From contig CAIMSU010000320.1 in the NCBI GenBank assembly GCA_903844155.1, positions 1-34,866 of the forward strand: a stretch of 34,866 bases of DNA. Direction: 5' to 3'. The position numbers were made by a program, and so were the translations under genes. The notes below the pieces were generated by a model. It made no database searches. It saw only the letters and a list, made by a program, of their open reading frames with translations, and was not told the DNA's origin. This DNA comes from an uncultured Pseudomonadota bacterium (GTDB taxonomy: Bacteria; Myxococcota_A; UBA796; SXON01). Of this stretch, positions 2,535-33,237 are shown piece after piece (within the stretch, counting starts at the first letter, position 1; each line of letters begins with the position of its first letter).

Positions 2535-3301
2535 TCGGGGCACTCTCCATCGCGCGACGCGAGACGTCCGCGCTCTTCAACACGCCCGTCGGCTGGGTGG
2601 CGCTCACGGCGTTCACCTTCATCGGCGGCTTCTTCTTCAGCTACCTCATCTACGCGTACTTCAACGTGTACCAGCAGTCGGTGGGAAACCCGCAGGAGGC
2701 GGACCAGCTCTCGGTCAACGAATTCGTGATCCAGAACCTGTTCTCCAACCTCGGTTTGATCGCGCTGTTCATCCTTCCCGCGGTCACGATGCGGCTGATC
2801 GCGGAGGACCGCCGCCAGAAGAGCATCGAGCTGCTGCTCACCTCGCCCATCGGGTCGTTCCAGATCGCGCTGGGCAAGTTCCTCGGGGGCATGGGTTTTG
2901 CGATGGTGATGGCGGGGTCGACGGTTCCCTACATGTGGTTCCTGTACGCCTTCGGCGACCCCGACAGCGGCATCGTCGTCGCCAACTACGTCGGCTTCAC
3001 GCTGCTGTGCGGCACGATCATCGCGCTCGGCACCTTCTGTTCGGCGATGACCGAGAACCAGATCGTCGCCTTCATGATGACGTTCGCCGGGGGCCTGCTC
3101 CTCTGGATCTCCGGCTGGTTCACCCAGTACATGGACGACAGCGCGCTGAAGACGTTCGTCACCTCCTGCTCCATGCTCAACCACGCGGATTCGATGGGCA
3201 AGGGCCTCCTGCACTCGCAGGACGTCATCTACTTCCTCACTTTCATCGGGTTCTTCCTGTTTGCGACGTCGCAGCGGGTTGAAGCCCTGCGGTGGCGCTG
3301 A
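2531..3301 (+). CDS. ABC-2 type permease (GldF-like)
   Basis: 256 residues and about six hydrophobic segments, beginning with NTPVGWVALTAFTFIGGFFF after a short RRE N-terminus. The region AVTMRLIAEDRRQKSIELLL, followed by TSPIG, is the conserved cytoplasmic loop of ABC-2 permeases that contacts the ATPase. Its start overlaps the ATPase stop (ATGA) and its stop overlaps the next start (TGATG), so the three products are probably made in fixed ratio. Together they form an inner-membrane exporter. The substrate cannot be read from the sequence. Confidence 0.9.
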   Translation: MIGALSIARRETSALFNTPVGWVALTAFTFIGGFFFSYLIYAYFNVYQQSVGNPQEADQLSVNEFVIQNLFSNLGLIALFILPAVTMRLIAEDRRQKSIELLLTSPIGSFQIALGKFLGGMGFAMVMAGSTVPYMWFLYAFGDPDSGIVVANYVGFTLLCGTIIALGTFCSAMTENQIVAFMMTFAGGLLLWISGWFTQYMDDSALKTFVTSCSMLNHADSMGKGLLHSQDVIYFLTFIGFFLFATSQRVEALRWR

Positions 3302-4947
3302 TGGCAATGCGTATCCTTGGCGGTTTGCTCGCCCTCTTTGGGCTGATGTGCGTCGTCGTGACCGGCCTCGCATGGGGACTCTTCGGGTTCGACAAGACCC
3401 CGCAGATGGTCAACATGGTGGGCGGCGTCGGCATCGTTCAGATCGGCCTCTGGCTCGTGCTCGACTGGAAGAACCTCGCGGCGATCGGGCGGGACCAGAC
3501 GGTGGGCCGCGCGGCGATGGCGAGCACGATCGTGCTGGTGCTGGCGGGCATCTCGGTCGGCGTCAACGTCGTGGCCTACCGGTACGACAAGCGCTGGGAC
3601 CTCACCAAGGGCCAGCAGTTCACGCTCTCGCAGCAGTCCAAGGACCTCGCCAAGGCGCTCGACCGCGAGGTGTCCGTTGAGGCGTTCTTCCCCAAAGGGA
3701 GCCCGCAGGAGCAGAACTTCCGCAACTTGATGCAGGGCTACACCGCCGAGTCGACGTTGCTCAAGGTCGAGTACCACGACCCCTACAACGAGCCGCTGCT
3801 CGCCGAAAAGGAGAAGGTCATGTCGGCCTCCGGGACCGTGATCCTGAAGGTCGGCGAGAACCAGCAGCGCCTGGAGTCGACGTTCGACGAGGAGGCCATC
3901 ACCAACGCCATCATCAAGGTGACGAAGGACAAGTCCCACACCGTCTGCGTGGTGCAGGGCCACGGCGAGCTCGACTTCACGGACGACCAGAGCCCCAACG
4001 GGTTTGGCATCGCATTGGCGAGGCTTGAGGCGCAGAACTACAAGACCTCGCAGCTCGTGCTGCTCCAGACCCAGCCCGACCCGGCGGACTGTGAAGTGGT
4101 GGCCCTTCCCGCACCCCACGGCGAGCTCGCTCCCGTCGAGCGCGACCGGCTGGCGCGGTACGTCGCAGCCGGCGGCGGCCTGATCGTCATGTTCGACCCG
4201 CTGCAAACCCCCGAGACCGCAGCGGACATGAGCCGTTACGGCGTGAAGGTCGGCAGCGACGTCGTGATCGAAGGCGACCCGAACCGGCTGATGGAGCCGG
4301 ACAACCCGGCGCTCCTGGTGCTCGACAAGTCGAGCTGGGACGTCCACCCGGTCACCCAGCGGTTGACTGGCCTCGTCGAGCTGCCGCTGGTGCGGTCGGT
4401 CACGAAGGGCGACGACGTCCCTGGAATCACCGTCCAGGTCATCGCCCACGGGAGCGAGCAGGGCTGGGGCGAGACCAAGCTCGACGACCCCTCGATGCCG
4501 TCGCAACCGGACGCCGGGCAGGACATCATTGGCAACGTCGGTCTGATCGCTGCCGTCGATGTGACGGATCCGTCCAAGCTTCGCACGACCACAGCGGCGG
4601 CGGCGGAACCCGCGAGCGTCGCGGGGGTGGTCACGACCGCCCCTGCGCTGCCCGCGGACGCGCCCGCCGTGAAGCCAGGCGGCAAGGTCATGGTCTTTGG
4701 CGGGGGCAGCTTCGCAACCAACGAGCTCGTCCTCAAGTACCAGAACCAGGACCTGTTCCTGAACACGGTCGCGTGGATGGTCGGCGAGAAGGACCAGCTC
4801 GCCGTGCGCGCGAATGACGCCGCCAAGGGCAAGCTGGAGCTCTCGGTGTTCTCGGTGTTCGGCGGCGGCATGCTCGCGCTGCTCGGAATACCGGGGCTGT
4901 GCGTCGCCGGCATGATCGGCACCTGGCTCGTGCGCCGCGGCAAGTAG
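3301..4947 (+). CDS. GldG-like ABC transporter accessory protein
   Basis: 548 residues from the ATG at 3301; an in-frame GTG at 3292 is possible, but the TGATG overlap favours 3301. Three hydrophobic segments lie in the first 95 residues. They are followed by KRWDLTKGQQFTLSQQSKDL, the conserved entry of the GldG/ABC-transporter-auxiliary domain, then a long extracytoplasmic region and a final membrane helix ending in RRGK. In Bacteroidota, GldA-F-G is linked to gliding, but similar trios occur widely without gliding, so motility is not implied. An Ala/Pro-rich linker sits just before the last conserved block. The DUF4340 gene that I recall often following such trios is absent; a convergent gene follows 16 bases on. 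Confidence 0.85.
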   Translation: MAMRILGGLLALFGLMCVVVTGLAWGLFGFDKTPQMVNMVGGVGIVQIGLWLVLDWKNLAAIGRDQTVGRAAMASTIVLVLAGISVGVNVVAYRYDKRWDLTKGQQFTLSQQSKDLAKALDREVSVEAFFPKGSPQEQNFRNLMQGYTAESTLLKVEYHDPYNEPLLAEKEKVMSASGTVILKVGENQQRLESTFDEEAITNAIIKVTKDKSHTVCVVQGHGELDFTDDQSPNGFGIALARLEAQNYKTSQLVLLQTQPDPADCEVVALPAPHGELAPVERDRLARYVAAGGGLIVMFDPLQTPETAADMSRYGVKVGSDVVIEGDPNRLMEPDNPALLVLDKSSWDVHPVTQRLTGLVELPLVRSVTKGDDVPGITVQVIAHGSEQGWGETKLDDPSMPSQPDAGQDIIGNVGLIAAVDVTDPSKLRTTTAAAAEPASVAGVVTTAPALPADAPAVKPGGKVMVFGGGSFATNELVLKYQNQDLFLNTVAWMVGEKDQLAVRANDAAKGKLELSVFSVFGGGMLALLGIPGLCVAGMIGTWLVRRGK

Positions 4948-19414: not shown

Positions 19415-20872
19415 TCAACGGCTCGTCGCGATCAGCGTGGGCACATCGGTGAGCGGGACCGCCGCGGACACACCGGCCCAGGGGGCAGAGCCAGTGTAGA
19501 CAACGCTCGTCGACCGCGTCGCCCCCGATGGGAGCTCCAGACTCCCGGAGCCCCACGCCACCCAGCGCGACCCACCGTCGCCTCGCGCGAACCGCACGAC
19601 AAACCGGTCCGGGCCGGCCTCCTCCACCGTGCTGGAAGCGAACGGGGCCACCTGGGTGGCGAACAGCTGGTAGGCGTACCAGGCCGGTGTGCGCCGACGA
19701 TCCTGCATGGTGATGAGCCCGAAGCCCCGCCACCGGTTGTTGGGGTCGTCGCCGGAATCCACGAAGGTGTGCCAGTAGACCGAGCTGTCGCCGTACCCGA
19801 ACGCGAGGGAGAACCGCCGGAAGACGTCCGCCGCCTGCTCGGTTTCAGAGTTCGGATAATTGGTGTGGCTCATCAGCGTGGGGTCCGATGTGACGCCTGT
19901 CTCCGTCAGCCAGACCGGCTTGTCCGGGACGCCGAGCTCCGCCAGCTTCTGTGTGAGCAGTGCCCGGGATTGCGCGTAGCGCTGCCAGGGCCCATAATAG
20001 TGGTAGTTGATGACATCAAACGTGTCCTTTCCGGCGGCCGTGATGACGTCCGTGAGCCACCCGTCCAACGCCTGCGGGGCCAGGCCGGAGAGGCCGGGCA
20101 TCACCACCTTCGCCCCGGGCTCATGCTCATGGATGATCCGGGCGACGCACGCAAGGAATTGTCCTTGCTCCGCGCTCGAGTAGCCGGAGGAAGGTGTGTT
20201 CCCCGGTAGCTCGTGGTGGCCCGGCTGGTTCGCCAACTCCGGCGGGATCGTGCCCCCCGGGTCCGCCGCCTTCCAGTGGTCCATCTCGTTGCCGATCTCC
20301 CAGTAGGTCGTGCTCGCCCGATAGCGGTCGACGACGGCCCCAACGTAGGCCTCGACATCCGAATTGCAGGACGTCTCGAACGGAAGCCCCGGAGCACGGC
20401 GCCAGGGCGGTGTGGGGTTTGCGTACTGGATGTCAAAGAGCGTGGGGATGACCATGCCGGCGAAGACCGGGATGACCGCATCCGCCCCGGTCCACGTGAA
20501 CGCCCCGGCCGAAGGCTCGATGTTCCGCCACGTCGCGTCGCCCGATGTGAGCTGCCGGAAGCGCGTCGCGCCGAGCGCCGCGAGCTCGGCCCGGGTCTGG
20601 ACCGCGGTCATGGCGCGCTCCCCGCTGTGGTCCGCGGTGCGCGGCCCGACCCATACCGTGTTGACGCCAAGCACCGGGCCACCGGGCGGGGCGGCGTAGG
20701 TGACCCCCGTGGCGCCAGCCGGAATCCCGCCTTCGGGCCGGTGCTGGGCCGCGGCGCGGGGCCGCTCGGAAGGCTCACCGGGCGCACGCTCGGTGGAAGC
20801 CGCGTGCGTGCGATGGCACCCCACCAGGAGCGAAGCCAGCCCGGACAGCAGGGCGGCCCGAGGGGACCTCAC
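19415..20872 (-). CDS. Clan GH-A glycosidase lipoprotein (GH39-like)
   Basis: 485 residues from a GTG at 20872 that overlaps the TGA of the upstream gene (GTGA), so the two are coupled. Signal peptide VRSPRAALLSGLASLLVGC with lipobox Cys19, then an Ala/Pro/Glu-rich linker. A (beta/alpha)8 glycoside hydrolase follows: the acid/base is Glu196 in TYWEIGNEMDHW, the nucleophile Glu324 in PVWLTETGVTS, the clan GH-A arrangement of NE after strand 4 and E after strand 7. FDVINYHYYGPW is the strand-6 region. The overall pattern is closest to GH39 or related xylosidase/endoglycosidase families. A small C-terminal beta domain begins at about 415. Substrate unknown. It acts at the cell surface, next to a sulfatase-like enzyme. 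Confidence 0.82.
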   Translation of the reverse strand: MRSPRAALLSGLASLLVGCHRTHAASTERAPGEPSERPRAAAQHRPEGGIPAGATGVTYAAPPGGPVLGVNTVWVGPRTADHSGERAMTAVQTRAELAALGATRFRQLTSGDATWRNIEPSAGAFTWTGADAVIPVFAGMVIPTLFDIQYANPTPPWRRAPGLPFETSCNSDVEAYVGAVVDRYRASTTYWEIGNEMDHWKAADPGGTIPPELANQPGHHELPGNTPSSGYSSAEQGQFLACVARIIHEHEPGAKVVMPGLSGLAPQALDGWLTDVITAAGKDTFDVINYHYYGPWQRYAQSRALLTQKLAELGVPDKPVWLTETGVTSDPTLMSHTNYPNSETEQAADVFRRFSLAFGYGDSSVYWHTFVDSGDDPNNRWRGFGLITMQDRRRTPAWYAYQLFATQVAPFASSTVEEAGPDRFVVRFARGDGGSRWVAWGSGSLELPSGATRSTSVVYTGSAPWAGVSAAVPLTDVPTLIATSR

Positions 20873-22404
20873 TTCCGCCCGGGCCGGCGCGATGCCGTCG
20901 AGCGCCTTCGAGCGACGAGGCCGAGCAGCCCGGCGACCGCGATCCCGGGCGCGCCGTCGAACCCGACCGACGCGCACCCGCACCGACGCGCATGGGGCCC
21001 ATCTGTGGCGGAATCGTCGACGCTGGCCGCCGAATCCTCCGCCCCGGGGAGCTGCGGGAAGCCGGATGCATCGCCGATAAGCCCCGGAAACGAGCCGCCG
21101 CCCGCTCGTCGGATGTACGACGGGCTCATCCACATCCACTCGACGTCCCGCCCGCCGCCGTCGGAGCAGAGGCCGAGGGAGGGCGCATCAAACTGGACGG
21201 CCACGTACCCCCACGCGGGCACGGCGCCCGACGGGACCAGCGCCGCGTACGTCGTCCCGTCGACCGCCTCCATCGGCACATCGCCCTCGGGCGTGACAAA
21301 CCAGACAGCCGTCACGCCCGACGCCCCGTCCGGCGCCACCGCCACCGCCACCTGGAGGTCCTGGCCCGCCGGCAACGCGACCGCGTCGCCAAGCCCCCAC
21401 GTGTCCCCCAGCGCATCGGACAGCGTGAGGACCATCGGCACCCTCGGCCCCGACGTGGCGATGGTCCGATGCCCAATGACCGCCCGATACAAGGACGCCC
21501 GGTCCAGGCTCTCCCCGTCGTCGAGCACGGCGATGGTCAATCCCCCCGTCGAGACCTGGTAGCCGCCAAGCACATCCTTGCAGAGGGACCCGGGGAGCGT
21601 CTGGTGGCCGTCCGTCCCCGCGAAAAACCCCATCTGCAGCGCGTAACCGGACGGATCCAGCGCCACTGCCACGCTGCCCTCCGGGTACGGGAAGTACGGC
21701 AGGTCGTAGTCGATGGCGCCGCCGAGGCTCGACCCCCACTGGCTGTAGACCTCAGTCGCCGGCTCGTAGGCCGTGTGGCAGGCCCAGTCCGTCGGCATCG
21801 GCGTGTCCATCATCGTGTGATGAGGGACGAGCACCGCGTCGCCATACTGGGCGACAAAGCCGTCCATCCACGTCGTGATGCCGGCGCAGTCGGCCAGGGT
21901 TCCCGGGGGCGAGACGTCCGCAAGCGCCACCGACGCAATCGCCGCCGGGTCCCCGAACATGAGCAGGTTCTTGTGCCCAAGCCGTGTGCCGTCGGGCAGC
22001 GCGAACCAGACCTCCGCGCCGGGGATGACCAGCAGCGGGCCGCCGGGATCGGGATGGTTCAGGTCGGCGCTGATGAGTTGGAAGTACTCATCCTCGGTGG
22101 TCTGGTAGTCCGCGCCGCCGTTCACGTGGTCCGAGACGACGACCCAGTCGAGCTTGTTGCTCACGGCCGTGCTGAAGACGTCGCTGAAGGCCCCACACGG
22201 CTCGCCCGAGTAGCATCCGTCACGCACGTCCGAGGAGTGGCCGTCGTGCGAAAGCCCCGTGTGGGCATGGGGATCGCCGTAGTAGAACCGATGGCCGTCG
22301 AAGGCGTCACTGGCAAGGGCTCGGCCGGACAGCGCCAGCCCGAGCGCCACGGCCCCGAACGGCCTGTGGAGGCGGGTGCGGAGGAGTTGGGCGAAATGGC
22401 GCAT
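20869..22404 (-). CDS. DUF3604/PHP-type metallohydrolase with MYXO-CTERM tail
   Basis: 511 residues. Signal peptide with cleavage after ALA (about residue 31), no lipobox. PHP-like metal motifs: YYGDPHAHTGLSHDG (His46, His48), VVVSDHVNG, LVPHHTMM and FFAGTDGHQTLPG, as in DUF3604/CehA-type proteins. A beta-rich region follows (about 330-430). The end carries a MYXO-CTERM-like sorting signal: an Asp/Ser/Ala linker, CGC at 475-477, a hydrophobic segment GIAVAGLLGLVA and RRR plus further Arg/Lys. This signal is known for anchoring to the myxobacterial surface. The family probably hydrolyses phosphoesters or related bonds; substrate unknown. The next gene downstream overlaps its stop. A TTGACA promoter lies upstream. 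Confidence 0.85.
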   Translation of the reverse strand: MRHFAQLLRTRLHRPFGAVALGLALSGRALASDAFDGHRFYYGDPHAHTGLSHDGHSSDVRDGCYSGEPCGAFSDVFSTAVSNKLDWVVVSDHVNGGADYQTTEDEYFQLISADLNHPDPGGPLLVIPGAEVWFALPDGTRLGHKNLLMFGDPAAIASVALADVSPPGTLADCAGITTWMDGFVAQYGDAVLVPHHTMMDTPMPTDWACHTAYEPATEVYSQWGSSLGGAIDYDLPYFPYPEGSVAVALDPSGYALQMGFFAGTDGHQTLPGSLCKDVLGGYQVSTGGLTIAVLDDGESLDRASLYRAVIGHRTIATSGPRVPMVLTLSDALGDTWGLGDAVALPAGQDLQVAVAVAPDGASGVTAVWFVTPEGDVPMEAVDGTTYAALVPSGAVPAWGYVAVQFDAPSLGLCSDGGGRDVEWMWMSPSYIRRAGGGSFPGLIGDASGFPQLPGAEDSAASVDDSATDGPHARRCGCASVGFDGAPGIAVAGLLGLVARRRSTASRRPGRK

Positions 22405-22479: not shown

Positions 22480-23973
22480 ATGGTGGGCTTGATGTACCCA
22501 ACTTCGACCCGGCACGCTCGCACGCTCGCCCGGGCGAGCACGTTGCTCGTGGGCATCATGGGCGGCTGCGTACGAGGTTCCCCTGATTCGCAGCGAACCG
22601 AGACCGGATCTGGCCCGCATCCGGACAGCCACCCCGACTCGGTCCTGCCGGCCGACAGCACCACCGAGAGCACCGCCGAGAGCGCCAGGGAGAGCGCAGC
22701 GGAGAGCAACCGGGACACCGGCGTCATCGACGGTCCCCTCATCGTCTCCTGGGGCGACCTGCACGGGCACTCAGGGCTGTCGTTCGATGGCTGCGAGGAC
22801 CCCACCGCGCTGTGCATGCCAGCCGACCTCACCCCCGGCGCGCACTTTTTTGAGAACGCGGCCACCAACGGGCTCGCCTTCGCAGCGCTGACGGACCACG
22901 CCGAGTACTCGCGGATCCAGGTGCCGACGGAGGGCACCGACCTGAGCATCTGGGACACGGCCAAAGCGCTCGTGGCTGCTGCTGATGGCGGGCCTGTGGT
23001 GCCGATCCTGGGCTTTGAATGGACCGCTGGGCACACAAGCGGGCATCGGACCGTGCTCCTGGAGGATCCCGCGAGCTGTGAGGCCTACCGGATCCCCGGC
23101 CCCGCGCCCACAGACGGCGGCTCGCGGGCCGGCGGGCAGGTGACGTTCCTCGCAAACCCGCTCCCGGCGGTCACCGACGCCGCGACGTTCGCCGCGGAGG
23201 TGGATGCGGCGGGCAGCGGGTCTGGCTGCGTGCCGACACGGTGGCTCAGCTTCCTGCACCACGTCGCCTACTACCCGCCGGCGGCCGTCGACTGGTCCCA
23301 GTCGAGCTACAGCCTGGCGACGGACACGGTCGTGGAGATGGCCTCGGAGCACGGCAGCTCCGAGTGCGCTGACCCGACGGCGCCGGGGTGCGACTGGCGC
23401 GTCCAGACCGACTTCTACCAGCCCGCGGGCGCCGTCCAGGTCGCCCTGCAGCTCGACCACGAGCTTGGATTCGTCGGAGGCACCGACCGGCACGACTCCG
23501 ACCCCGGGCGGCTCGACATCGGCGGCGGGCCGACGGGCCATCTCGTGGACAGCGACGGCGACGGCGTCGACGACGGCCCGCAGTACCAGTTCACGAGCGG
23601 CACGCTCACGGGGGTCATCACCCCCTCGCCGCTCACACGCGCGGGGATCTTCGACGCGCTGGAGGCCCGCCACACCTACGTTGCCTCCTGGCTCCCCACC
23701 GGCCTCTCCGTCACCGCGACGTCCGCGGGCCTGGACTACCTGCCGGGCGATGAGGTGCCCGCGGGTGCCCTCTCCGTGGCGGTCGATCTCGCGGACCCGA
23801 ACGTGTCGGACTGGTCGGCCGAGATCGTCGACGCGACGGGCGCTGCCGTGCCGACGGCTGGGGCGGAGACCGTGCTCACACCAACGGCCGGCCAGGCGCT
23901 CTACGTCCGCATCGACGCGACGGTCGGCGGGGTCGCCCAGCGGGCCTGGGCGTCACCCTTCTTCATCCGGTAG
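22480..23973 (+). CDS. DUF3604/PHP-type metallohydrolase lipoprotein
   Basis: 497 residues from the ATG at 22480 (an ATG at 22492 is equally possible). The signal peptide ends in a lipobox-like MGGC (Cys30), followed by a Ser/Thr/Glu/Asp-rich linker up to about residue 80. Metal motifs match the divergent neighbour: SWGDLHGHSGLSFDG (His95, His97), ALTDHAEY, SFLHHVAYY and FVGGTDRHDSDPG. Residues from about 430 form a beta-domain (SVAVDLADPNVSDWSAEIVD). An acidic DSDGDGVDDG loop could bind calcium. It is a paralog of the product of 20869-22404 but anchored by lipid instead of a MYXO-CTERM tail. It is divergent from that gene and convergent with the diheme fusion gene. Confidence 0.83.
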   Translation: MVGLMYPTSTRHARTLARASTLLVGIMGGCVRGSPDSQRTETGSGPHPDSHPDSVLPADSTTESTAESARESAAESNRDTGVIDGPLIVSWGDLHGHSGLSFDGCEDPTALCMPADLTPGAHFFENAATNGLAFAALTDHAEYSRIQVPTEGTDLSIWDTAKALVAAADGGPVVPILGFEWTAGHTSGHRTVLLEDPASCEAYRIPGPAPTDGGSRAGGQVTFLANPLPAVTDAATFAAEVDAAGSGSGCVPTRWLSFLHHVAYYPPAAVDWSQSSYSLATDTVVEMASEHGSSECADPTAPGCDWRVQTDFYQPAGAVQVALQLDHELGFVGGTDRHDSDPGRLDIGGGPTGHLVDSDGDGVDDGPQYQFTSGTLTGVITPSPLTRAGIFDALEARHTYVASWLPTGLSVTATSAGLDYLPGDEVPAGALSVAVDLADPNVSDWSAEIVDATGAAVPTAGAETVLTPTAGQALYVRIDATVGGVAQRAWASPFFIR

Positions 23974-23998: not shown

Positions 23999-26563
23999 TC
24001 AATACCCGGACAACCCCGAGATCCAGTCATCCAGCCGATGGATCGACGTGGTGTCCGGCGTCTGCAGCAGCACCGGCGGCATGTCGCCCTGCGCCATGAC
24101 CTGGGTGAGGATGCTGGCGCTCGGGTCCGTGGTGTCCACGTAGGGCAGGCCGTTGCTCAGGTTCGGGTTGGCATTGTAGTAGTGGGCGATGTCGTTCAGG
24201 CCCATCTGGTCCAGCGGCGTGTCGTACCGGAAGTCCAGATGCAGAGTCGTCGTGCTGGCAGTGATGCCCGCCGGGTTGTGGCAGAGGGCACAGTTGGCGT
24301 TGAGATAGCCGCGTGCGAACACGGTCGTTGCGTCGCCCGTGATGGTGGGCGCCGAGCCGACCGGTTGACTGAGAACGCTCGCAAAGTCGGCGAGCCCGGT
24401 GTCCCCAAGCTGCAGTGGGTTCACCCCGAGCGCCCAGTCGCCCCCGCGCGTGCCCTGATGGCAATCCTTGCACGTCTCGGTGGAGGGGACGATGTAGTGG
24501 GTGCCGTCGCTGAGGGTCACCTCAGAGCGGAATCCGTTGGAGAGCGTGGCGTCGTCGCCGTCCCACACATAGACCCCGGGGACCCAACCGTCGGCTGTCT
24601 TTTCCAACACCCGGGTCTCGGCCGGCGTGCCATTCATGTCAAAGTCCTTCCAGAGCTTCGTCCCAACCGGGAACACCCAATTCTCCGGGTCAGTGGTGTC
24701 GATGCTCTGGCCCGCCGGGAGCTGGATGAAGCGGTTCTTGCCCGCGCCATTGGACCAGAGCGGGTACAGCGGCGTGTAGCCCACCCCGCCGTCCACCCAC
24801 GACGTCGCTGAAAGTTTCTCACCTGCAGCGCCGACCTGGGCCCTGTCCGCCCGGACGATCATCTTCTGCAAGCTCCCGCCAAGCTCCGCGGCCACCACGG
24901 TGCCGTCGGAGAGCTCCTCCATCGACATCAACCAGGGCAGGTGTGCGAGCGGTACGGGCGCGCCCTGCGGTACTCCCGCGTCGTTGAGCGGCACGCCCTG
25001 GATCCAACCCGCGTAGAAATCGGACACGAGCACGTACCCGTCGAGCCGTCCGGCGAAGGGCAGCCCATCCATCCGCAACCCTGCTGACGGCGTACACACA
25101 AACCCTGAGTGATCGCCCCCGTCCAGATCGGCGTCCAGATAGCTCTGATCGCCGTCATCGTTGAACGAGAAGATCGGCTGGATGTAGTCCGGGTTCTCCG
25201 GCACACAGGGACCTTCGCAGGCCGGGAAGCCGTAGTTTGCGCCGGTGTTCCCGACCGCCGGATCGAAGTAGTTGAGCTCCTCGGTGGTGTCCACCCCCGG
25301 GTCCGGGATGCACAGACCGTCGCCGCAGTTGAGGATTCGCCAGGGGTTTCGGAGTCCCATCGCCACGAAATACCCGTTGCCCCACGGCGAGGAGAAGGCC
25401 GGCGACGCCACCCCGGCGTCCGAGACCGTCATCGCCCAGAGCTTGCCCGCGGGGGTGTTGGGATCGCTGTCGTCGATGTCCCCGACGGGTCCGGTCACGA
25501 GGTAGAGGATGGGATTCCCGGCGACGTCGCCATGGAATTTGATATCGCCCCCGCAATGCCCGGGCGTGCCGACCGGGCAGGGCACGGTGAGGACGTCCAC
25601 TTCCCCGGAGACGGTCAAGGGGTCGAGGCTGTCGACGTGCCAGCGCTGAATGGCGCAGGTCTGGTTGGTCCAGACAAACAGGTTGTCGTGGGTCCCATCC
25701 CCGTACCGCGGATCGAGCGCGAGGCCGATGAGGTCGTCCGGATTCCCGAGGTTTGTCGAGGAGAGGATGACCTTGCTCTTCACGTCCACGTGGTAGAGAT
25801 CGCCGATGAGCGAGGTCACGAGGATGGTGTCGTCGGGCAGCACCGCGATGTCGGCCGGCGCCGGCAGGTCGACGATCTTCTCAAACCCGTACTCGTTCGG
25901 GGCGGGGTCATCGTACTGAACGGACGCCGTCCCCGGCGCGCTCGTCAGCTCCCCATCCGACGCCGTGAGCGAGCAGACCCACGTCGCGCCCCGCGCGGTG
26001 TCCGCGGCGAAGATGGTGTCCCCCGCGAGCAGGTCGGTAGCCCCGGTGTACGGCTCCCCGTCCATCGTCCAGGAGACCGTGTAGGTGAGCGCGTCGCCAT
26101 CCACGTCGGTCGACGGGGTGGCGGCCTCGCACCGCAACGTGTCACTGCCTGGATTCTGTGGGTCGGCCGTCGCCACGATGCTCGCTACCGGCGCGGTCGG
26201 CGCGCTGTCCGCGATGGTGACGGACGCTGTCGCTGTGCCGGTGGAGGTCTTGTCCGTGACCGTCACGTCCACCTGCACGACCGAGGCCTTCGGGAACGGC
26301 CCGACCGTCGCGGCATCGCTGGCCGTGGCGTAGGCGGCGCCGTTCACGGTCCAGGCGTAGCCCGTGGTGAGCGTGTCACCGGAATTCCCCGACGCGCCGA
26401 CCACCGCGGTGATCGCGTCCGCGGCCGTCGGCGACGCAGGGGACAGCACGACCGACGCGGCCGGGAGACCCGGCGACTGGCGATGGCAGGCCACGGCGGA
26501 GCCAAGCAAGAACAGCGCGCCAACCGGGGTGATGGCGCTGCGGTAGGGAAGACTGGATGGCAC
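23999..26563 (-). CDS. GSDH-type beta-propeller fused to SO2930-like diheme cytochrome c, lipoprotein
   Basis: 854 residues from a GTG with GGAGG six bases upstream. Lipobox VAC (Cys26). Two PKD-like domains (about 36-118 and 123-216; DVDGDALTYTVSWTMDGE). A glucose/sorbosone-dehydrogenase-type propeller runs from about 225 to 600: ADIAVLPDDTILVTSLIGDL, GLRNPWRILNCGD, TTEELNYFDP and NYGFPACEG. A C-terminal region resembles the SO2930 diheme family (PLYPLWSNGAGKNRFIQLPA, WVFPVGTKLWKDF) with two heme-binding sites, CKDCH (698-702) and CALCH (758-762). Expected role: oxidation of a sugar or alcohol, perhaps with PQQ, with electrons passed to its own hemes outside the cytoplasm. Cofactor use is inference. 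The paralog is at 30931-33237. Confidence 0.85.
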   Translation of the reverse strand: MPSSLPYRSAITPVGALFLLGSAVACHRQSPGLPAASVVLSPASPTAADAITAVVGASGNSGDTLTTGYAWTVNGAAYATASDAATVGPFPKASVVQVDVTVTDKTSTGTATASVTIADSAPTAPVASIVATADPQNPGSDTLRCEAATPSTDVDGDALTYTVSWTMDGEPYTGATDLLAGDTIFAADTARGATWVCSLTASDGELTSAPGTASVQYDDPAPNEYGFEKIVDLPAPADIAVLPDDTILVTSLIGDLYHVDVKSKVILSSTNLGNPDDLIGLALDPRYGDGTHDNLFVWTNQTCAIQRWHVDSLDPLTVSGEVDVLTVPCPVGTPGHCGGDIKFHGDVAGNPILYLVTGPVGDIDDSDPNTPAGKLWAMTVSDAGVASPAFSSPWGNGYFVAMGLRNPWRILNCGDGLCIPDPGVDTTEELNYFDPAVGNTGANYGFPACEGPCVPENPDYIQPIFSFNDDGDQSYLDADLDGGDHSGFVCTPSAGLRMDGLPFAGRLDGYVLVSDFYAGWIQGVPLNDAGVPQGAPVPLAHLPWLMSMEELSDGTVVAAELGGSLQKMIVRADRAQVGAAGEKLSATSWVDGGVGYTPLYPLWSNGAGKNRFIQLPAGQSIDTTDPENWVFPVGTKLWKDFDMNGTPAETRVLEKTADGWVPGVYVWDGDDATLSNGFRSEVTLSDGTHYIVPSTETCKDCHQGTRGGDWALGVNPLQLGDTGLADFASVLSQPVGSAPTITGDATTVFARGYLNANCALCHNPAGITASTTTLHLDFRYDTPLDQMGLNDIAHYYNANPNLSNGLPYVDTTDPSASILTQVMAQGDMPPVLLQTPDTTSIHRLDDWISGLSGY

Positions 26564-26569
26564 GGGATT

Positions 26570-26574
26570 CCTCC
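26570..26574 (-). promoter_or_regulatory. Ribosome binding site that fixes the GTG start at 26563
   Basis: GGAGG on the minus strand, six bases before the GTG. The frame is open for 13 more codons upstream, but this site and the resulting signal peptide decide the start. A TATCTT box lies a few bases further upstream. Confidence 0.7.
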
Positions 26575-26733
26575 AAGGACAGTAAGATAGCCGGGGATTC
26601 ACGCCGCGGCCCGGCTGGACTGCCGGAATCGGCTACCGATCGGACGAACGGCCGACCCGTACGAGCGCCCAGAAACGACCGGTGGCGGCCCCCGCCCGGC
26701 GTGGGGTACGCTTGCACGCTCTTCGGCCCCACC

Positions 26734-28011
26734 GTGACGCGACGATGTACAATGGCGCTCCCGCTCGTCGCCTGCCTGGCCTGCCGCGGCTCGCCCATGT
26801 CGGCCGACAACGTCTGCAGCGCCGATTTTCAACCCGACACCATCGGCACGAACACCCGCACCGTGGACACCATGCTGGCGGACGCGACCGGCGTGTTCCA
26901 GATCCACGTCGCCGTGCGATGGGCCGAGCGGATGGGGCCGGCCGGGACGGCCCCGATCGGGGTGCTCCTCCACGGCGGATGGGACCACATCGGCACGCCC
27001 GTCACCGTGGACATGCCCCACCTGGACACCACCCAGCCGCTCGTGGACATCCACCTGGACCTGCCCGGGGGCGGACAGTCTGGAGGGACGGACGACGAGC
27101 GCGGGCCGCTCGCCGCTGCAGCCGTCGCGGCAGTGCTGCAATGGGCGCACGGAGACACGGTCGATGCTGCCGGCTGCCATCTCCAGGACCGCATTCCCCC
27201 AGCGAACGCCGACGACATCTACGTCGTCGGCGCGTCCAACGGCGGCAACCTGGCCTACGCCACGCTCACCGACGAGACCCTCGACCTCCCGCCTCTCGCC
27301 GGGCTCGTGACCTGGGAGACCCCGGTGGCCGCGACGTTCGCGAGCGTGGAGCTGGGGGCCGACCCCACCGTCTACACCCCCGGCGCATGCCAGTGGACGG
27401 CGGCCAACGGGATCCAATGCCAGTTCCCGGCCGACGAGCTGCTGGCGCTGCCGGCTGATCCCACCTCGGAGCTCTGCTTCGACATCAACGCAGACGGGCG
27501 CTGCGAGGACGGCGTGGACGCGATCGTTCATGGGCCGCCGAGGCCCGAGACCGGCGAGTTGATGCTCTCTCCAGACCTTCGCCTGGCGATGGACGAGCGC
27601 GGCCTGCTAGTGACCGGGTACGCCTCTGCAGCGGACGATGACACCTGGTGGGCGTACCGGGACGCCAGTCGCCGCGTACAGCTCCTGACCCAGCGGTGGC
27701 CGGACCTCCCAGTTCTGCTGATCGGGAGCGACGTTGATCACATCCTCTCGACCTGGACCGATCATCCCCACATCCACGGCATCGGGCAGGCGCTACAGGC
27801 CAGCGGCGCCGCCTGGACGCGCCTGAACCCCGGGTCGACGTGGCTGCCGGCGAACCATACCGAGAACGCCCCGGATCTTCCGCTGTCTTTGCTTGGGGAT
27901 GACGGCCAGATGCTGACGGAACAGGCGGAGAGCCCCCTGGACCAGCCGTTGACAGCGGCAGTGTTCGAACTCTCCAGTAGGCACGCCAGTGGCGACTGGA
28001 CCAGTGAGTGA
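26734..28011 (+). CDS. Alpha/beta-hydrolase lipoprotein, tandem paralog 1
   Basis: 425 residues if the GTG at 26734 is used, which gives a charged N-terminus (VTRRCTMALPLVAC); an ATG at 26752 is an alternative. The lipid-anchored Cys is Cys14 (LVAC) or Cys17. The hydrolase fold shows APIGVLLHGGWDHIGTP (HGG oxyanion region), GGGQSGG, and the nucleophile elbow GASNG with Ser168 in IYVVGASNGGNLAYATL. FDINADGRCEDG looks like a calcium-binding loop. The end (VLLIGSDVDHILSTWTDHPH, then AAWTRLNPG) carries the probable acid/His residues and is shared with the proteins at 28085-29533 and 9121-10155. Possible extracytoplasmic esterase; substrate unknown. Divergent from the diheme fusion gene. Confidence 0.8.
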   Translation: MTRRCTMALPLVACLACRGSPMSADNVCSADFQPDTIGTNTRTVDTMLADATGVFQIHVAVRWAERMGPAGTAPIGVLLHGGWDHIGTPVTVDMPHLDTTQPLVDIHLDLPGGGQSGGTDDERGPLAAAAVAAVLQWAHGDTVDAAGCHLQDRIPPANADDIYVVGASNGGNLAYATLTDETLDLPPLAGLVTWETPVAATFASVELGADPTVYTPGACQWTAANGIQCQFPADELLALPADPTSELCFDINADGRCEDGVDAIVHGPPRPETGELMLSPDLRLAMDERGLLVTGYASAADDDTWWAYRDASRRVQLLTQRWPDLPVLLIGSDVDHILSTWTDHPHIHGIGQALQASGAAWTRLNPGSTWLPANHTENAPDLPLSLLGDDGQMLTEQAESPLDQPLTAAVFELSSRHASGDWTSE

Positions 28012-28072
28012 GCGAGCCTTCCGCCGCCGCCACGCCTACGGAAAACCAGCAGACAACGGCGCTGGCGCCGGA

Positions 28073-28078
28073 TAGCCT
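28073..28078 (+). promoter_or_regulatory. Leaderless-type -10 box for the second hydrolase gene
   Basis: TAGCCT, then CCCCAG, then ATG at 28085. CAGACA lies 17 bases upstream (28050-28055) and matches the last four bases of TTGACA. Confidence 0.4.
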
Positions 28079-28084
28079 CCCCAG

Positions 28085-29533
28085 ATGATCCACCGACGAG
28101 CCACGCCTTTCGCGGCCCGAATCCCCCCGACGAGCGTGTCGGGGATGCTTCGGCACGCGACCGGGCTGGGGCTGATCACGGGCGCTCTCGTCGGGTGTGT
28201 CCGGGGGAGCGTGCCGATCACCTCGGACGACACGACCGGGGACAGCACGGAATGGACCGACTCGGTGGTCCCAACCGAGACGGGAGGCCAGGGGGAGTCC
28301 GGCGACAGCACCGAGAGCCACGACACGTCCCGCACCTGCGATCTCGCCGACATCACGGGGCGCAACCCGATCCGGCTCACCAACGGACTCGACACCGCGG
28401 TCTTCTACCACCCGACGGACACCCCGCTCGCGCCCGACGGGTTCCCCACCGTGGTCGTCCTGCAGGGCTCCGACACGGCGGGCGGCGTGCCGTTCACAGG
28501 CGATCCCACGGTGGACACCTTCGGCTACATCCAGGTGGTGGTGTCCTACCCCGACGATCGCCGGGGGGCTGATTCACGCGCCGCCATCGCCACCGTGGCT
28601 CGCTACGCCGCCGGCCTGGAGGCCGACGCCGACGGCTGCTACCTCTCCGACCGCGTCTCCGTCACCGTGTCGAAGCTCCCCTCCATCATCCAGGGCCAGT
28701 CCAACGGCGGCAACACGCTGATTGCCACGCTGGCCGACAACAGCCTGGACCTGCCCCCCCTCTCGGGCGCGGTGATGTGGGAGGTGCCGATCGAGCCCGA
28801 GATGGTGACCGTTGAGATGGGCGGGAAGGACTTTCCGAACCCGTTCTACATGGTGGGGCAGTGCCAATGGCCCACGGATGGCAGCCTCACCTGTCCCTAC
28901 ACCTACGCGCCCCGCCTTGGCTGGGACCCGACCTACGCCGGCGCCGCGTCGCTCGTGGGCGCCGTGTACTTCGACCTCGACAATGACGGCGCCCTGGGGG
29001 ACGCCGACTACCCCGTCCTCGGCGCGCCGACGGTCGATGGCCATCGCGCGTTTTCGCTGCAGCTTCGCGCGCTGATGGAGGAGCAGGGGCTGGTCGGGCC
29101 GGATGCGATCAGCGTCGACGACAACACGGCGTTCTGGGCCGAGCGCGACGGGTCATTGCTGGCCAAGACCGCCGCTGCGAACTTTCCGGACCTGCCGATG
29201 ATCTCCATCGGCACGGAGACAGACCACGGCATGGCGATCCCGGATCACCCGCACGTCTCCGGCGTGGCCGGGGCGTGGCAGGACCTCGGAGAGCCCTGGG
29301 TCCGCGTGAATCCTGCGCCGTCGTACATGACCACAGCGCTGGGCTCTGGTCCGGCGTGGACCGACAACCCACCAAACTCCCACACCTACCCCGGCGATCC
29401 GGCGATCGTGATGGAGCCGGAGGAGACCGAGCTGCACCTGAACGCCGAGGTGTACCGCTCGGCCGCGGTCCTGGAGCTGATCGATCGGACGCTGAGTGGG
29501 GACTGGGAGACCGACGACCCGGGGGCGAGTTGA
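28085..29533 (+). CDS. Alpha/beta-hydrolase lipoprotein, tandem paralog 2
   Basis: 482 residues from the ATG at 28085, chosen because of the promoter-like box; the ATG at 28145 would give a more typical signal peptide (MLRHATGLGLITGALVGC). Lipobox LVGC (Cys38 by the long start), then a Ser/Asp/Thr/Glu-rich linker of about 45 residues. Core: TVVVLQGSDTAGGVPF, nucleophile elbow GQSNG (Ser206) in SIIQGQSNGGNTLIATL, then LDLPPLSGAVMWEVPIEPE, which parallels LDLPPLAGLVTWETPVAAT in the preceding gene. FDLDNDGALGDADYP is a calcium-loop-like motif also in the paralog. The end has TETDHGMAIPDHPHVSG and WVRVNPAPS. Its stop overlaps the TTG of the next gene (TTGA). Confidence 0.82.
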   Translation: MIHRRATPFAARIPPTSVSGMLRHATGLGLITGALVGCVRGSVPITSDDTTGDSTEWTDSVVPTETGGQGESGDSTESHDTSRTCDLADITGRNPIRLTNGLDTAVFYHPTDTPLAPDGFPTVVVLQGSDTAGGVPFTGDPTVDTFGYIQVVVSYPDDRRGADSRAAIATVARYAAGLEADADGCYLSDRVSVTVSKLPSIIQGQSNGGNTLIATLADNSLDLPPLSGAVMWEVPIEPEMVTVEMGGKDFPNPFYMVGQCQWPTDGSLTCPYTYAPRLGWDPTYAGAASLVGAVYFDLDNDGALGDADYPVLGAPTVDGHRAFSLQLRALMEEQGLVGPDAISVDDNTAFWAERDGSLLAKTAAANFPDLPMISIGTETDHGMAIPDHPHVSGVAGAWQDLGEPWVRVNPAPSYMTTALGSGPAWTDNPPNSHTYPGDPAIVMEPEETELHLNAEVYRSAAVLELIDRTLSGDWETDDPGAS

Positions 29534-30927
29534 CCCGACGCTCGATCTCCGCCGCCCGCGCCGGCCCCGTGGTGACCGTGTGCGCCGTCCTCGCCGCCCT
29601 CGGCGGCTGCAATCGCGGGAGCGCGACCGAGAGCGGCGCTGATTCCGCGACCCCATCCGATTCGCAGAGCGACTCCACCCCTGCGAGCTTTGGGCTGCTT
29701 GCGGCCGATCTGGGGGGTTCGTGGTTTGAAACGGCGACTACCGGCGTCACCGTCGCCAACCAGATGGACCCGGGCACGATCGAACCCGACCTCTGCCAGG
29801 ACCGCAGCACCGGCACCTTCTGCATGATGTTTGCGGCCCACCAGCGCACGGCCTTCGACGGCACCGACGAGATCGCCTTCGCGTACAGCCCCATCAACAT
29901 GGTGGACGGTCCGGATGGCACGGACGTCGACAGCCAGCAGGACCTCATCTCGCGCGTCTACGCGGTCGACCGGCAATCGCACGCGACCCGCTGGCACATC
30001 CGCTACCTCGACTTCTCAGAGCACTATCCAACAGACATCTGCAACTTCGACCCCGGGGATCCCTGTCACCCCTCCTTGTCCCTGCCGGCCGCCGAGTATT
30101 GGCTCTGCTCGTTGCACATGGTTCATGACTTTGTGGTGACGGACGAGGACGCCACCTCTGTCGGCCTCTGGGTTGCCGACACGCGCAACGACCGCATGGT
30201 CCACGCCACCCTCGACAAGACCTCCGACTGCGCCGTGGTGGACGAGATCATGAACGCCGCCACGCTGCCGGCCTGGTCGCCCTACCGCTCGGTCAACAGC
30301 GTTCAGTATTCCACCGATGGGACGACGGAGAGCATGCTTGTGTCCAACAAGGACGCCGCGAGCAGCGAGTCCAACGACGGATCGAGCCGGGGCAAGCTGG
30401 TGGAATGGCGACGGGCGGCGACACCGCCGGGGGCGACGTGGCAGCGCGCCTGGGAATACCCAGCAGCAGCGGGAGCGTACGTGAACGCCCCCCACGGCGC
30501 ATCGTGGTACGACCCCGGGGATGGGCATCGTTACGTCATCTTCGCCCAATCGCTGGGCGCCTCGGACGACGGGTTCGGCGCCGGGTCGGGCGGGTCGGTC
30601 TCTGCCGTTCAGGTGGACGACGCCACCCCGGTCTACATGACCGATCTGATCACGACGGTCACCATGGGATTCCCGCGGGATGTCAGCCTGCTCCCTGGCA
30701 ACCAGATGCTGTGGACCGACTCAGGCTGCATCGGGTTTGACTGCGGCACGTTGACAGCGGACTACATCGTCTCCGCGCCGCCCCTGACGGCCAGCGGGTT
30801 GGATGGCGCCTACTCGCGGGACCACTCCCAACAGAGTTTTGTGACGCTCCCCCTCGACGGCACCTTGCCGATGTCCTCGGTCTCCGCCTCGCTCTTCAGC
30901 ACAGACGTCATCCCCCCCCCACAGTGA
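29530..30927 (+). CDS. NHL-like beta-propeller lipoprotein
   Basis: 465 residues from a TTG that overlaps the preceding TGA (TTGA). This start gives a clean signal, LTRRSISAARAGPVVTVCAV then LAALGGC with the lipobox Cys, followed by a Ser/Asp/Thr linker (ESGADSATPSDSQSDSTP). The mature part looks like a propeller: LWVADTRNDRMVHATLD is NHL-like, and HGASWYDPGDGHRYVIFAQS and MGFPRDVSLLPGNQMLWTDS repeat the blade pattern. Several Cys pairs (DICNFDPGDPCHP, GCIGFDC) suggest disulfides. It somewhat resembles arylsulfotransferase propellers, but I cannot place catalytic histidines. Coupling to the hydrolase suggests a joint function at the surface. Confidence 0.7.
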   Translation: MTRRSISAARAGPVVTVCAVLAALGGCNRGSATESGADSATPSDSQSDSTPASFGLLAADLGGSWFETATTGVTVANQMDPGTIEPDLCQDRSTGTFCMMFAAHQRTAFDGTDEIAFAYSPINMVDGPDGTDVDSQQDLISRVYAVDRQSHATRWHIRYLDFSEHYPTDICNFDPGDPCHPSLSLPAAEYWLCSLHMVHDFVVTDEDATSVGLWVADTRNDRMVHATLDKTSDCAVVDEIMNAATLPAWSPYRSVNSVQYSTDGTTESMLVSNKDAASSESNDGSSRGKLVEWRRAATPPGATWQRAWEYPAAAGAYVNAPHGASWYDPGDGHRYVIFAQSLGASDDGFGAGSGGSVSAVQVDDATPVYMTDLITTVTMGFPRDVSLLPGNQMLWTDSGCIGFDCGTLTADYIVSAPPLTASGLDGAYSRDHSQQSFVTLPLDGTLPMSSVSASLFSTDVIPPPQ

Positions 30928-30936
30928 CGGTCACTG
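30922..30936. terminator. Palindrome containing both convergent stop codons
   Basis: CAGTGAC-G-GTCACTG, a perfect 7-bp dyad. The TGA of the propeller gene and the TGA of the convergent diheme gene both lie inside it, three bases apart. It could be a short bidirectional hairpin or a binding site. No U-tract. Confidence 0.4.
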
Positions 30937-33237
30937 GGTAGCCGCGGGCTGCCGGGCGATCCAGTCGTCCAGCTCGGCATAGAACACCATGTCCGGCCGC
31001 CACACGGAGAGCAGCGGCATGTCGGTGTTCACGAGCATGTCCAGGATGTAGCTGTCCTCGGGGTGGCCGAGGGAGATGATCGACTTGCTCACCGGTGAGA
31101 AGGGATCCGTGTCGTCGTAGTACTTGATCGGTTGGGTGACCGCGTCAAAGTTCTCATTGCTGTAGCGGAAGTCGAGTGAGACCTCAGACATTTGGGAAGG
31201 CAGGGCACCCGGCTGGTGGCAGAACGCGCAATTGCCGTGAAGATACCCACGGATGTCGCGGTACACCGAGTCCGTGCCGACGACCGTGCCTGCGGACCCC
31301 GGGTCGCCCGAGAACAGGCTCGCGAGTTCGTGGAGCTGCGTATCCCCGAGCTGGAAGTGCTCAAACCCGATCGGCCACTCCCGGCCCACCGTCGCCTCGT
31401 GGCAAACGCTGCAGGAGAACTCGGACGGGATCAGGTACGACGTGTTCGTCAGCTCCAGGTTCTGGCGCCGCCCATCGGTCAGGAAGGCGTCAGGCCCCTC
31501 CCATTTGTAGGTTCCGGCCACCCACCCGTCGCTTTGCTTCTCCAACTCGCGCGTCTCCACCTTCTCCCCGTCCATCGAGAAGGTCTTCCAGAACCGGGTG
31601 CCGACCGGGAACGCCCAGGCATCGGGGTTGGAGACGTCCACGGTCCCACCCGCGGGAAGGTCGATCTCCCGGTCCTTGTCGGCCCCATTTGCCCACAACG
31701 GATACTGGACCGTATACCCAAGCGACGTGTCGCTCCCCGCGTTCGCGTACGTTGTCGCGGAGAGGGCCAGGCCGACGGGACCGACGGTCCTGCGGTCCGC
31801 CCGCAACCCGAGTTTTCGAATGCGACCGGAGAGGTCCGCCGCGTAGATCGTGCCGTCCGCAGCCTCCGCCATGCCCGTGCTGTAGGGCATGTGGGCCAGC
31901 ATGATGTCGTCCGACCCCGTCGTACCGTCGTCGTTCACCTTCATGCCGCGGATCCAGCCGTCGTAGAACTCGCCGTAGAGCAGGTAGCCATCGAGCAGCC
32001 CCGCGTAGGCCTTCCCGGAGGCGCGCACGCCAAGCGTGATGACATGCACGAACCCGAGCCTGCCGGTGCTGTCGAGGTCCTCGTCCACGAACTGCGGGTC
32101 GTGCTGATCCCAGTACCGGGTCGGCGAATCGTAGAGGCCGGAGGAGTCGGGGCCCTCCACATTCCAGAAGCCGAAGTTGTTGCCGGGTCCGGTGTAGAGG
32201 TCGAGCTCCTCGTAGGCGTTGAGGCCAACGTCGCCGACGCAGAGCACCGCGCCACAGTTCGCCATCCGCCACGGTTGACGCATGCCGATCGCCGCAACAC
32301 CCGGCGTCGCGAACACCGAAGGCACGGCAGGCGTCGGCGTTCCATCGTCCGCGAAGTCAAACGCGATGATGCCACCGCCAAGGTCCGTGTCGTCCTGCCC
32401 GTTGAACCCACTGACCGGACCGATGCTCATGTACAGCGACGGCGTGCCGCCGTTGGGCGAGTAGAACACGATGTCGCCGCCATCCGCGCCGCCGGTCGGG
32501 CAGTCAGGCTGACCCAGGGCAGCCCACAGGTCCAGCGGGTTGGAGACCGCGAGCGGCTCAAGGCTCAGGTCGTACCGGAGAAAAGCACACCCGGAGCTGG
32601 AGAACATGTAGAGCCAATCGTGCTGACCATCCCCAAAGCGCGGGTCCAGCGCGATGGTGGAGATGCCGTGTCCCGCGTCGATGATCGAGGTGGTGCCGAC
32701 CGTTGCCCCGGTCGCCGGATCGAACAGCGAGATGTCACCGAGCAGGCTGGAGATGAGCAGCCGCTGGTCGGGGGTGACGAGGATGTCCGAGGGATAGCTG
32801 GACGTCCCGATCGTCTCCAACGCGTAGGCCCCCGCGACCGGGGCATCCAGGTGCCACGCGGCGCTCGCCTCGGCACCCCCGGCCGACACCGTGCACTCCC
32901 AGTCCGCCGCCCGCGCCGACTCGTCAGAAGCTATGGTGTCCCCTGCGACATTCGTCGTGGAGACGTGGGGGGCGCTCACGCCGTCCGCCGTCCAGGCGAC
33001 GCTGAATCCCGTGGCCGCAACCTCGCCCGTTGTGGCCGAGCACACGAGGTTTCCGGAAGCGTCCTTCTGCACGGTGGCCGTCAAGCCGGCGGTCCGGTGG
33101 CAGGCCGCGAGCGCGACGAGGCCAAAAAGCGCGGTTCGAAGGACCCCTGGTGCCGCGACGGCCCGACCCCGCCTCGGAAGGCCCGGGGACAGGTTCCGGC
33201 GGTCCGACGCGGAATCGGAGTCAATTGTACGTGCCAT
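30931..33237 (-). CDS. Second GSDH-type propeller / diheme cytochrome c fusion lipoprotein
   Basis: 768 residues, ATG at 33237 with a TAGTGG box six bases upstream. A long Arg/Ser-rich n-region precedes the signal helix and lipobox LAAC (Cys46; CHRT, compare CHRQ in the paralog). Only one Ig/PKD-like domain is present (about 50-125), against two in the paralog. The propeller (about 130-520) shows SDILVTPDQRLLISSLLGDI, MRQPWRMANCG, AYEELDLYTG and NNFGFWNVEG. The C-terminal part has YPLWANGADKDREIDLPAGG, WAFPVGTRFWKTF, and heme sites CSVCH (609-613) and CAFCH (670-674), 61 residues apart versus 60 in the paralog. Same proposed role: extracytoplasmic oxidation delivering electrons to covalent hemes. 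Confidence 0.85.
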   Translation of the reverse strand: MARTIDSDSASDRRNLSPGLPRRGRAVAAPGVLRTALFGLVALAACHRTAGLTATVQKDASGNLVCSATTGEVAATGFSVAWTADGVSAPHVSTTNVAGDTIASDESARAADWECTVSAGGAEASAAWHLDAPVAGAYALETIGTSSYPSDILVTPDQRLLISSLLGDISLFDPATGATVGTTSIIDAGHGISTIALDPRFGDGQHDWLYMFSSSGCAFLRYDLSLEPLAVSNPLDLWAALGQPDCPTGGADGGDIVFYSPNGGTPSLYMSIGPVSGFNGQDDTDLGGGIIAFDFADDGTPTPAVPSVFATPGVAAIGMRQPWRMANCGAVLCVGDVGLNAYEELDLYTGPGNNFGFWNVEGPDSSGLYDSPTRYWDQHDPQFVDEDLDSTGRLGFVHVITLGVRASGKAYAGLLDGYLLYGEFYDGWIRGMKVNDDGTTGSDDIMLAHMPYSTGMAEAADGTIYAADLSGRIRKLGLRADRRTVGPVGLALSATTYANAGSDTSLGYTVQYPLWANGADKDREIDLPAGGTVDVSNPDAWAFPVGTRFWKTFSMDGEKVETRELEKQSDGWVAGTYKWEGPDAFLTDGRRQNLELTNTSYLIPSEFSCSVCHEATVGREWPIGFEHFQLGDTQLHELASLFSGDPGSAGTVVGTDSVYRDIRGYLHGNCAFCHQPGALPSQMSEVSLDFRYSNENFDAVTQPIKYYDDTDPFSPVSKSIISLGHPEDSYILDMLVNTDMPLLSVWRPDMVFYAELDDWIARQPAATQ

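Follow-up and report, generated by a model that had tools for sequence, protein, structure and literature searches.

A PQQ propeller of six blades that carries its own heme domain is known from CcPDH, the quinohemoprotein pyranose dehydrogenase of the fungus Coprinopsis cinerea (AA8-AA12-CBM1; PMC4332668, PMC6881789), where PQQ-to-heme transfer within a propeller-cytochrome protein has been demonstrated (PMC4332668). Its PQQ contacts include His363, Arg430 and Asn431 (PMC6881789), and the His has been proposed to act as the catalytic residue of bacterial enzymes (PMC4133262). The aldose sugar dehydrogenases (3a9g from Pyrobaculum, 2ism from Thermus, Asd from E. coli and sGDH from A. calcoaceticus) possess a propeller homologous to that of the two proteins described below, A and B, but unlike these they lack hemes, Ig-like domains or any fusion. 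The SO2930 diheme cytochrome (TIGR03806), for which the beta-helix family TIGR03805 is a frequent partner, paired or fused, is in turn homologous to the tail of A and B. A similar idea, a GSDH-like propeller plus a heme domain, is found in the PVC-type propeller/heme-binding proteins (TIGR02604/TIGR02603), although neither of these models matched A or B at E<=1.

Architecture of proteins A and B

The window, by which we mean the whole 34,866-nucleotide stretch of DNA that was analysed, encodes A and B on its minus strand. Both open reading frames have coding-type GC3 values (0.87 and 0.86, respectively), and the proteins show 38% identity in an alignment of 730 columns that covers one Ig-like domain, the propeller and the tail. 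From the N-terminus A is composed of a lipobox start, two Ig-like beta-sandwiches, a GSDH-type propeller and an SO2930-like diheme tail, and B shares this order with a single beta-sandwich. Their features are as follows:

23999..26602, minus: protein A, 867 aa, GTG start, shorter starts possible
26486..26488, minus: A lipobox cysteine C39, SAVA/CHR, from sequence
26198..26470, minus: A Ig-like domain 1, residues 45-135, without a Pfam match
25898..26191, minus: A Ig-like domain 2, residues 138-235, aligning with the single Ig-like domain of B
24833..25897, minus: A GSDH-type propeller, residues 236-590, by profile matches and hhalign
25556..25558, minus: A His349, aligned to the catalytic His of PQQ sugar dehydrogenases (PMC4133262, PMC6881789)
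25346..25351, minus: A Arg418-Asn419 (GLRNPWR), aligned to the PQQ-contacting Arg-Asn pair (PMC6881789)
24002..24832, minus: A SO2930-like diheme tail, residues 591-867, by TIGR03806 match
24458..24472, minus: A heme site 1, motif CKDCH, residues 711-715
24278..24292, minus: A heme site 2, motif CALCH, residues 771-775
30931..33237, minus: protein B, 768 aa
33100..33102, minus: B lipobox cysteine C46, LAA/CHR, from sequence
32848..33081, minus: B single Ig-like domain, residues 53-130, by alignment and predicted model
31774..32832, minus: B GSDH-type propeller, residues 136-488, by profile matches and hhalign
32485..32487, minus: B Ala251 at the catalytic His position, by alignment
32275..32280, minus: B Arg320-Gln321 at the Arg-Asn pair position, by alignment
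30934..31773, minus: B SO2930-like diheme tail, residues 489-768, by TIGR03806 match
31399..31413, minus: B heme site 1, motif CSVCH, residues 609-613
31216..31230, minus: B heme site 2, motif CAFCH, residues 670-674

A preliminary description of the window had placed propeller, diheme region and lipid anchor on a single chain, in two diverged copies inside 10 kb that differ in the number of their N-terminal domains. This outline is right, and to it we add a third copy, D, elsewhere in the genome. We regard the pair as a divergent form of a fusion that is widespread and apparently unstudied.

In both proteins the lipobox cysteine follows a hydrophobic stretch, as judged by eye (...LLGSAVA/C39HR in A and ...FGLVALAA/C46HR in B), and comparable lipobox-type N-termini are present in three homologues. 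The N-terminal domains, two predicted beta-sandwiches in A and one in B, were initially called PKD domains, a name we have abandoned as PKD models gave zero matches to either protein at E<=1; what is left is an Ig/Fn3-like fold, the beta-sandwiches of A matching Fn3/Ig structures.

The two CxxCH motifs are spaced 60 residues apart in A and 61 in B, and shuffling either protein 20,000 times never produced two such motifs. Against TIGR03806 the tails score 125 bits (A, E 3e-36) and 104 bits (B, E 6e-30), both missing the curated cut-off of 313.3, of which their scores are about one third. Every A/B-type member carries two CxxCH motifs, and a conserved motif of the DMP(P/L) type might supply a distal Met ligand. 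Cytochrome c assembly proteins are encoded in the same genome (contig C317), making heme attachment possible.

A widespread fusion and a separate lineage

The joining of GSDH propeller to SO2930 tail was at first thought to be a possibly undescribed architecture, and this holds only in the sense that we found no paper on the fusion in the open-licence literature, where TIGR03806 yielded no text and SO2930 one passing mention. As an architecture it is common. The source genome (G000) itself encodes on contig C9 (P0003) a 749-aa lipobox protein with GSDH (138 bits) and SO2930 (247 bits) matches. Across the phylum an SO2930 match is present in 232 of 379 genomes, many of these matches lying in open frames 720-1050 aa long, and GSDH (106-183 bits) was found in each of ten such proteins taken as a sample from the class and phylum. 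A cultured representative is also available in the marine Pseudoalteromonas sp. Bsw20308, whose WP_237113707.1 (6474-bp gene) covers 89% of the C9 fusion and is annotated as a 'starch-binding protein'. This gene lies on plasmid pPBSW1 (L080:6789-13262), and a DUF1552 gene comes after it.

Like A and B, these canonical proteins are exported as one chain with the propeller followed by the diheme tail. They differ in their higher scores (TIGR03806 about 200-277 bits among the canonical members sampled), in a CxxCH spacing that is mostly 70-81 residues, and in their position in the trees, where both domains of A and B fall into a clade of their own. In seven other high-SO2930 proteins the GSDH motif was absent by pattern search, and four of these seven (L057, L061, L062 and L063) instead join the SO2930 diheme module to the parallel beta-helix family TIGR03805. 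Since it is fused to both GSDH and TIGR03805, the SO2930 diheme domain seems to be a reusable electron-transfer module with several partners.

The A/B-type members that we found all belong to the same family as the window: they come from five other genomes (G033-G037) and from the source genome (A, B and D). A single scan of genome contigs yielded just three relatives. In an unrooted tree of the diheme domain the A/B type, the canonical fused proteins, true TIGR03806 and an unfused short-spacing group each fall on one side of a branch, and a split with support of 100/99 separates A/B plus the unfused short-spacing cytochromes from the canonical fused proteins plus true TIGR03806. The unrooted propeller tree likewise separates A/B plus two unfused propellers from the canonical fused proteins plus standalone GSDH (support 99/99). 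CxxCH spacing is 59-61 in the A/B type and 58-70 in the unfused group. One genome (G008, locus L067) encodes an A/B-side diheme protein (2622-3560) and one of these two unfused propellers (3557-4723) as separate lipobox genes with a 4-bp overlap, an arrangement that supports the two parts working together. Its gene order, diheme and then propeller, is the reverse of that in the fused protein; the fusion therefore did not come from this arrangement by simple loss of a stop codon.

These trees would fit either a second, separate fusion of a working pair or repeated splitting, and the simplest reading, which we consider likely, is the second fusion. Under the alternative a single old propeller-SO2930 fusion was split later in several lineages, with A and B as fast-evolving descendants. 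Domain order is indeed identical in both fusions, the A/B branches are long enough (0.5 and 1.6 changes per site) to mislead trees, and unrooted trees are compatible with one gain followed by losses. However, both domains place A and B among unfused genes with 99-100% support, and their CxxCH spacing is closer to that of the unfused proteins than to that of the canonical fusions; we therefore regard a single fusion as possible but doubtful.

The trees also bear on how A and B are related to each other. The nearest relative of A (60% identity) is in a genome of the same genus (G033), while B groups with D and with a protein from another genus (G037), so that A and B are old paralogues. Local tandem duplication is thus rejected as the origin of the pair. 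Copy D is split by an assembly break between contigs C90 (L088:2-799) and C218 (L089:10105-11853), and its two pieces share 66% and 73% identity with B.

Catalytic residues, selection and cofactor supply

The GSDH model PF07995 (cut-off 25 bits) scores 21.4 bits for A, below the threshold, and 27.7 for B, above it. A profile built from six A/B-type propellers of the family matched the Pyrobaculum PQQ sugar dehydrogenase 3a9g (E 3.8e-9) as well as 3das and 2ism, with His aligned on His and Arg-Asn on Arg-Asn. Compared by hhalign with the canonical GSDH propellers, the A/B propellers aligned along their length (304 columns, probability 99.3%, E 3.8e-20). Given these matches, we take homology of the A/B propeller to GSDH and the PQQ sugar dehydrogenases to be firm at the level of sequence profiles. 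AlphaFold2 models made from five-sequence alignments were too poor for a reading of the pocket (mean pLDDT 47 for A and 43 for B). Foldseek on the poor model of A still listed 2ism and 3a9g; multi-domain receptors such as ROS1 and Sevenless, which headed that list, were disregarded on account of the low-confidence multi-domain model.

Across 35 aligned propellers the His is present in 32 and the Arg-Asn pair in 31. A retains both (His349 and Arg418-Asn419), as do five homologues from other genomes, and the same contacts are those seen in CcPDH. B possesses neither, having Ala251 and Arg320-Gln321 in their place, and D likewise has Ala and Arg-Gln, a pair found in B and D only; a distant fused protein (L039) combines Ala with Arg-Asn. 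The term dehydrogenase, originally applied to both proteins, consequently suits the residue pattern of A and is unsupported for B. Even the cofactor of A is uncertain, as the canonical motifs GxGDGG, NExG and VYRG are absent or altered in both proteins, so that the pocket of A may not bind PQQ.

The ratio dN/dS between B and D is about 0.21 overall; taken separately, the propeller gives about 0.16 and the tail 0.27, with dS near 1. To judge from these values the B/D propeller is under purifying selection, and they rule out B as a pseudogene.

PqqC exceeded the cut-off in 65 of the phylum's 379 genomes; no genome of the class is among these, one of them giving only a weak match. With completeness of 72-100% among the class genomes, the lack of PqqC from every one is convincing, and any PQQ must therefore be imported. 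Bacteria that lack PQQ synthesis can import PQQ, and many with PQQ enzymes do so (PMC12124388). A corresponding search for PqqE was matched by radical SAM proteins everywhere and is therefore uninformative. What is new here is thus a probable second fusion, His-less copies under selection, and their presence in a class without PQQ synthesis.

Proposed functions and genomic surroundings

Our main reading, to which we assign a probability of roughly one half, is that A and B form part of a small group of related lipoproteins with an aldose-dehydrogenase-like propeller and a diheme c-type tail, probably joined separately from the canonical fusion, in which A is a quinohemoprotein dehydrogenase and B is altered. 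A would be held on the membrane by its lipid, with imported PQQ and Ca2+ sitting in the propeller. A sugar-like substrate would be oxidised with His349 acting as the base, and the two hemes might then relay the electrons to an acceptor in the periplasm, for example a soluble cytochrome c. This route is likened to the transfer from PQQ to heme in CcPDH, from which A and B differ in carrying a C-terminal c-type diheme instead of an N-terminal heme b (AA8) domain, CcPDH moreover being fungal and secreted with a cellulose-binding module. B, along with D, would have kept the hemes and a propeller under selection while losing the catalytic His and the Arg-Asn pair, and these copies probably either bind a ligand without PQQ chemistry or use a changed chemistry. 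Although speculative, it is conceivable that two domain families were fused twice in the same order and that the B/D branch then lost the residues of a quinone enzyme under strong selection on its propeller, giving a heme-bearing propeller that works without PQQ in a class unable to make it.

The whole A/B lineage might also do without PQQ, its propeller being a binding domain as in hedgehog-interacting protein (HHIP) and its hemes serving in sensing, storage or electron exchange with a partner. The residues lost from B and D would be expected in that case, as would the altered canonical motifs in all A/B-type members and the absence of PqqC from the class; in addition HHIP, a non-enzymatic protein with the GSDH fold, is among the best relatives of solved structure for the canonical fusion. 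Pure binding nevertheless offers no evident reason for A and five homologues from other genomes to have kept His and Arg-Asn, and we give this explanation only a minority chance.

Ig-like spacers are common on surface proteins, and A and B are lipobox proteins with two hemes. Both points would favour a surface oxidase passing electrons out of the cell, as the preliminary description envisaged, a role we now consider improbable: the genome has no decaheme MtrC/OmcA-type cytochrome above the cut-off and no MtrB match (the latter a weak test, as its controls were silent), and a periplasm-facing anchor fits equally well. Very improbable is a peroxidase of the MauG/CcpA kind with the propeller as docking domain, for despite the two c-type hemes within one domain no CCP/MauG model matched A or B at E<=1, the best matches being TIGR03806 and weak generic c-type domains.

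These proteins bring to notice a large and apparently unstudied set of self-contained propeller-diheme proteins, and within one genome A-type copies with the catalytic His and B-type copies without it provide a natural comparison. In a class seemingly unable to make PQQ they could be used to probe dependence on imported PQQ or another role of the propeller. Propeller-heme fusions also have a possible practical use in direct electron transfer to electrodes, which has been shown for CcPDH (PMC4332668).

There is no conserved neighbourhood hinting at a substrate or acceptor. The A/B loci compared share no neighbours except Ser/Thr kinases, one of which immediately precedes the unfused pair in G008 (L067:458-2671) and another the A/B-type gene in G037 (L091:5147-6958), in both cases on the upstream side; as kinases are common here, these positions may be due to chance. 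In three related genomes a radical SAM/SPASM protein of ~590 aa is encoded directly downstream of an A/B-type gene (L040, 12421-14196; L041; L042). It reaches no PqqE cut-off, its best families are far below cut-off, and the gene is not found beside A or B.

Neighbours in the window encode CehA/McbA-type metallohydrolases, alpha/beta hydrolases, an arylsulfotransferase and a sulfatase; these types are not common to the other A/B loci, and no operon joins them to A or B. Two divergent head-to-head genes (20869-22404, minus strand; 22480-23973, plus strand) have weak matches to CehA/McbA / DUF3604 metallohydrolases, and between A and B lie tandem genes (26557-28011 and 28085-29533, plus strand) for exported alpha/beta-hydrolase-like proteins that are 34% identical over 372 aa. 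The stretch thus holds three diverged pairs of paralogues: the metallohydrolases, the alpha/beta-hydrolases, and A and B themselves.
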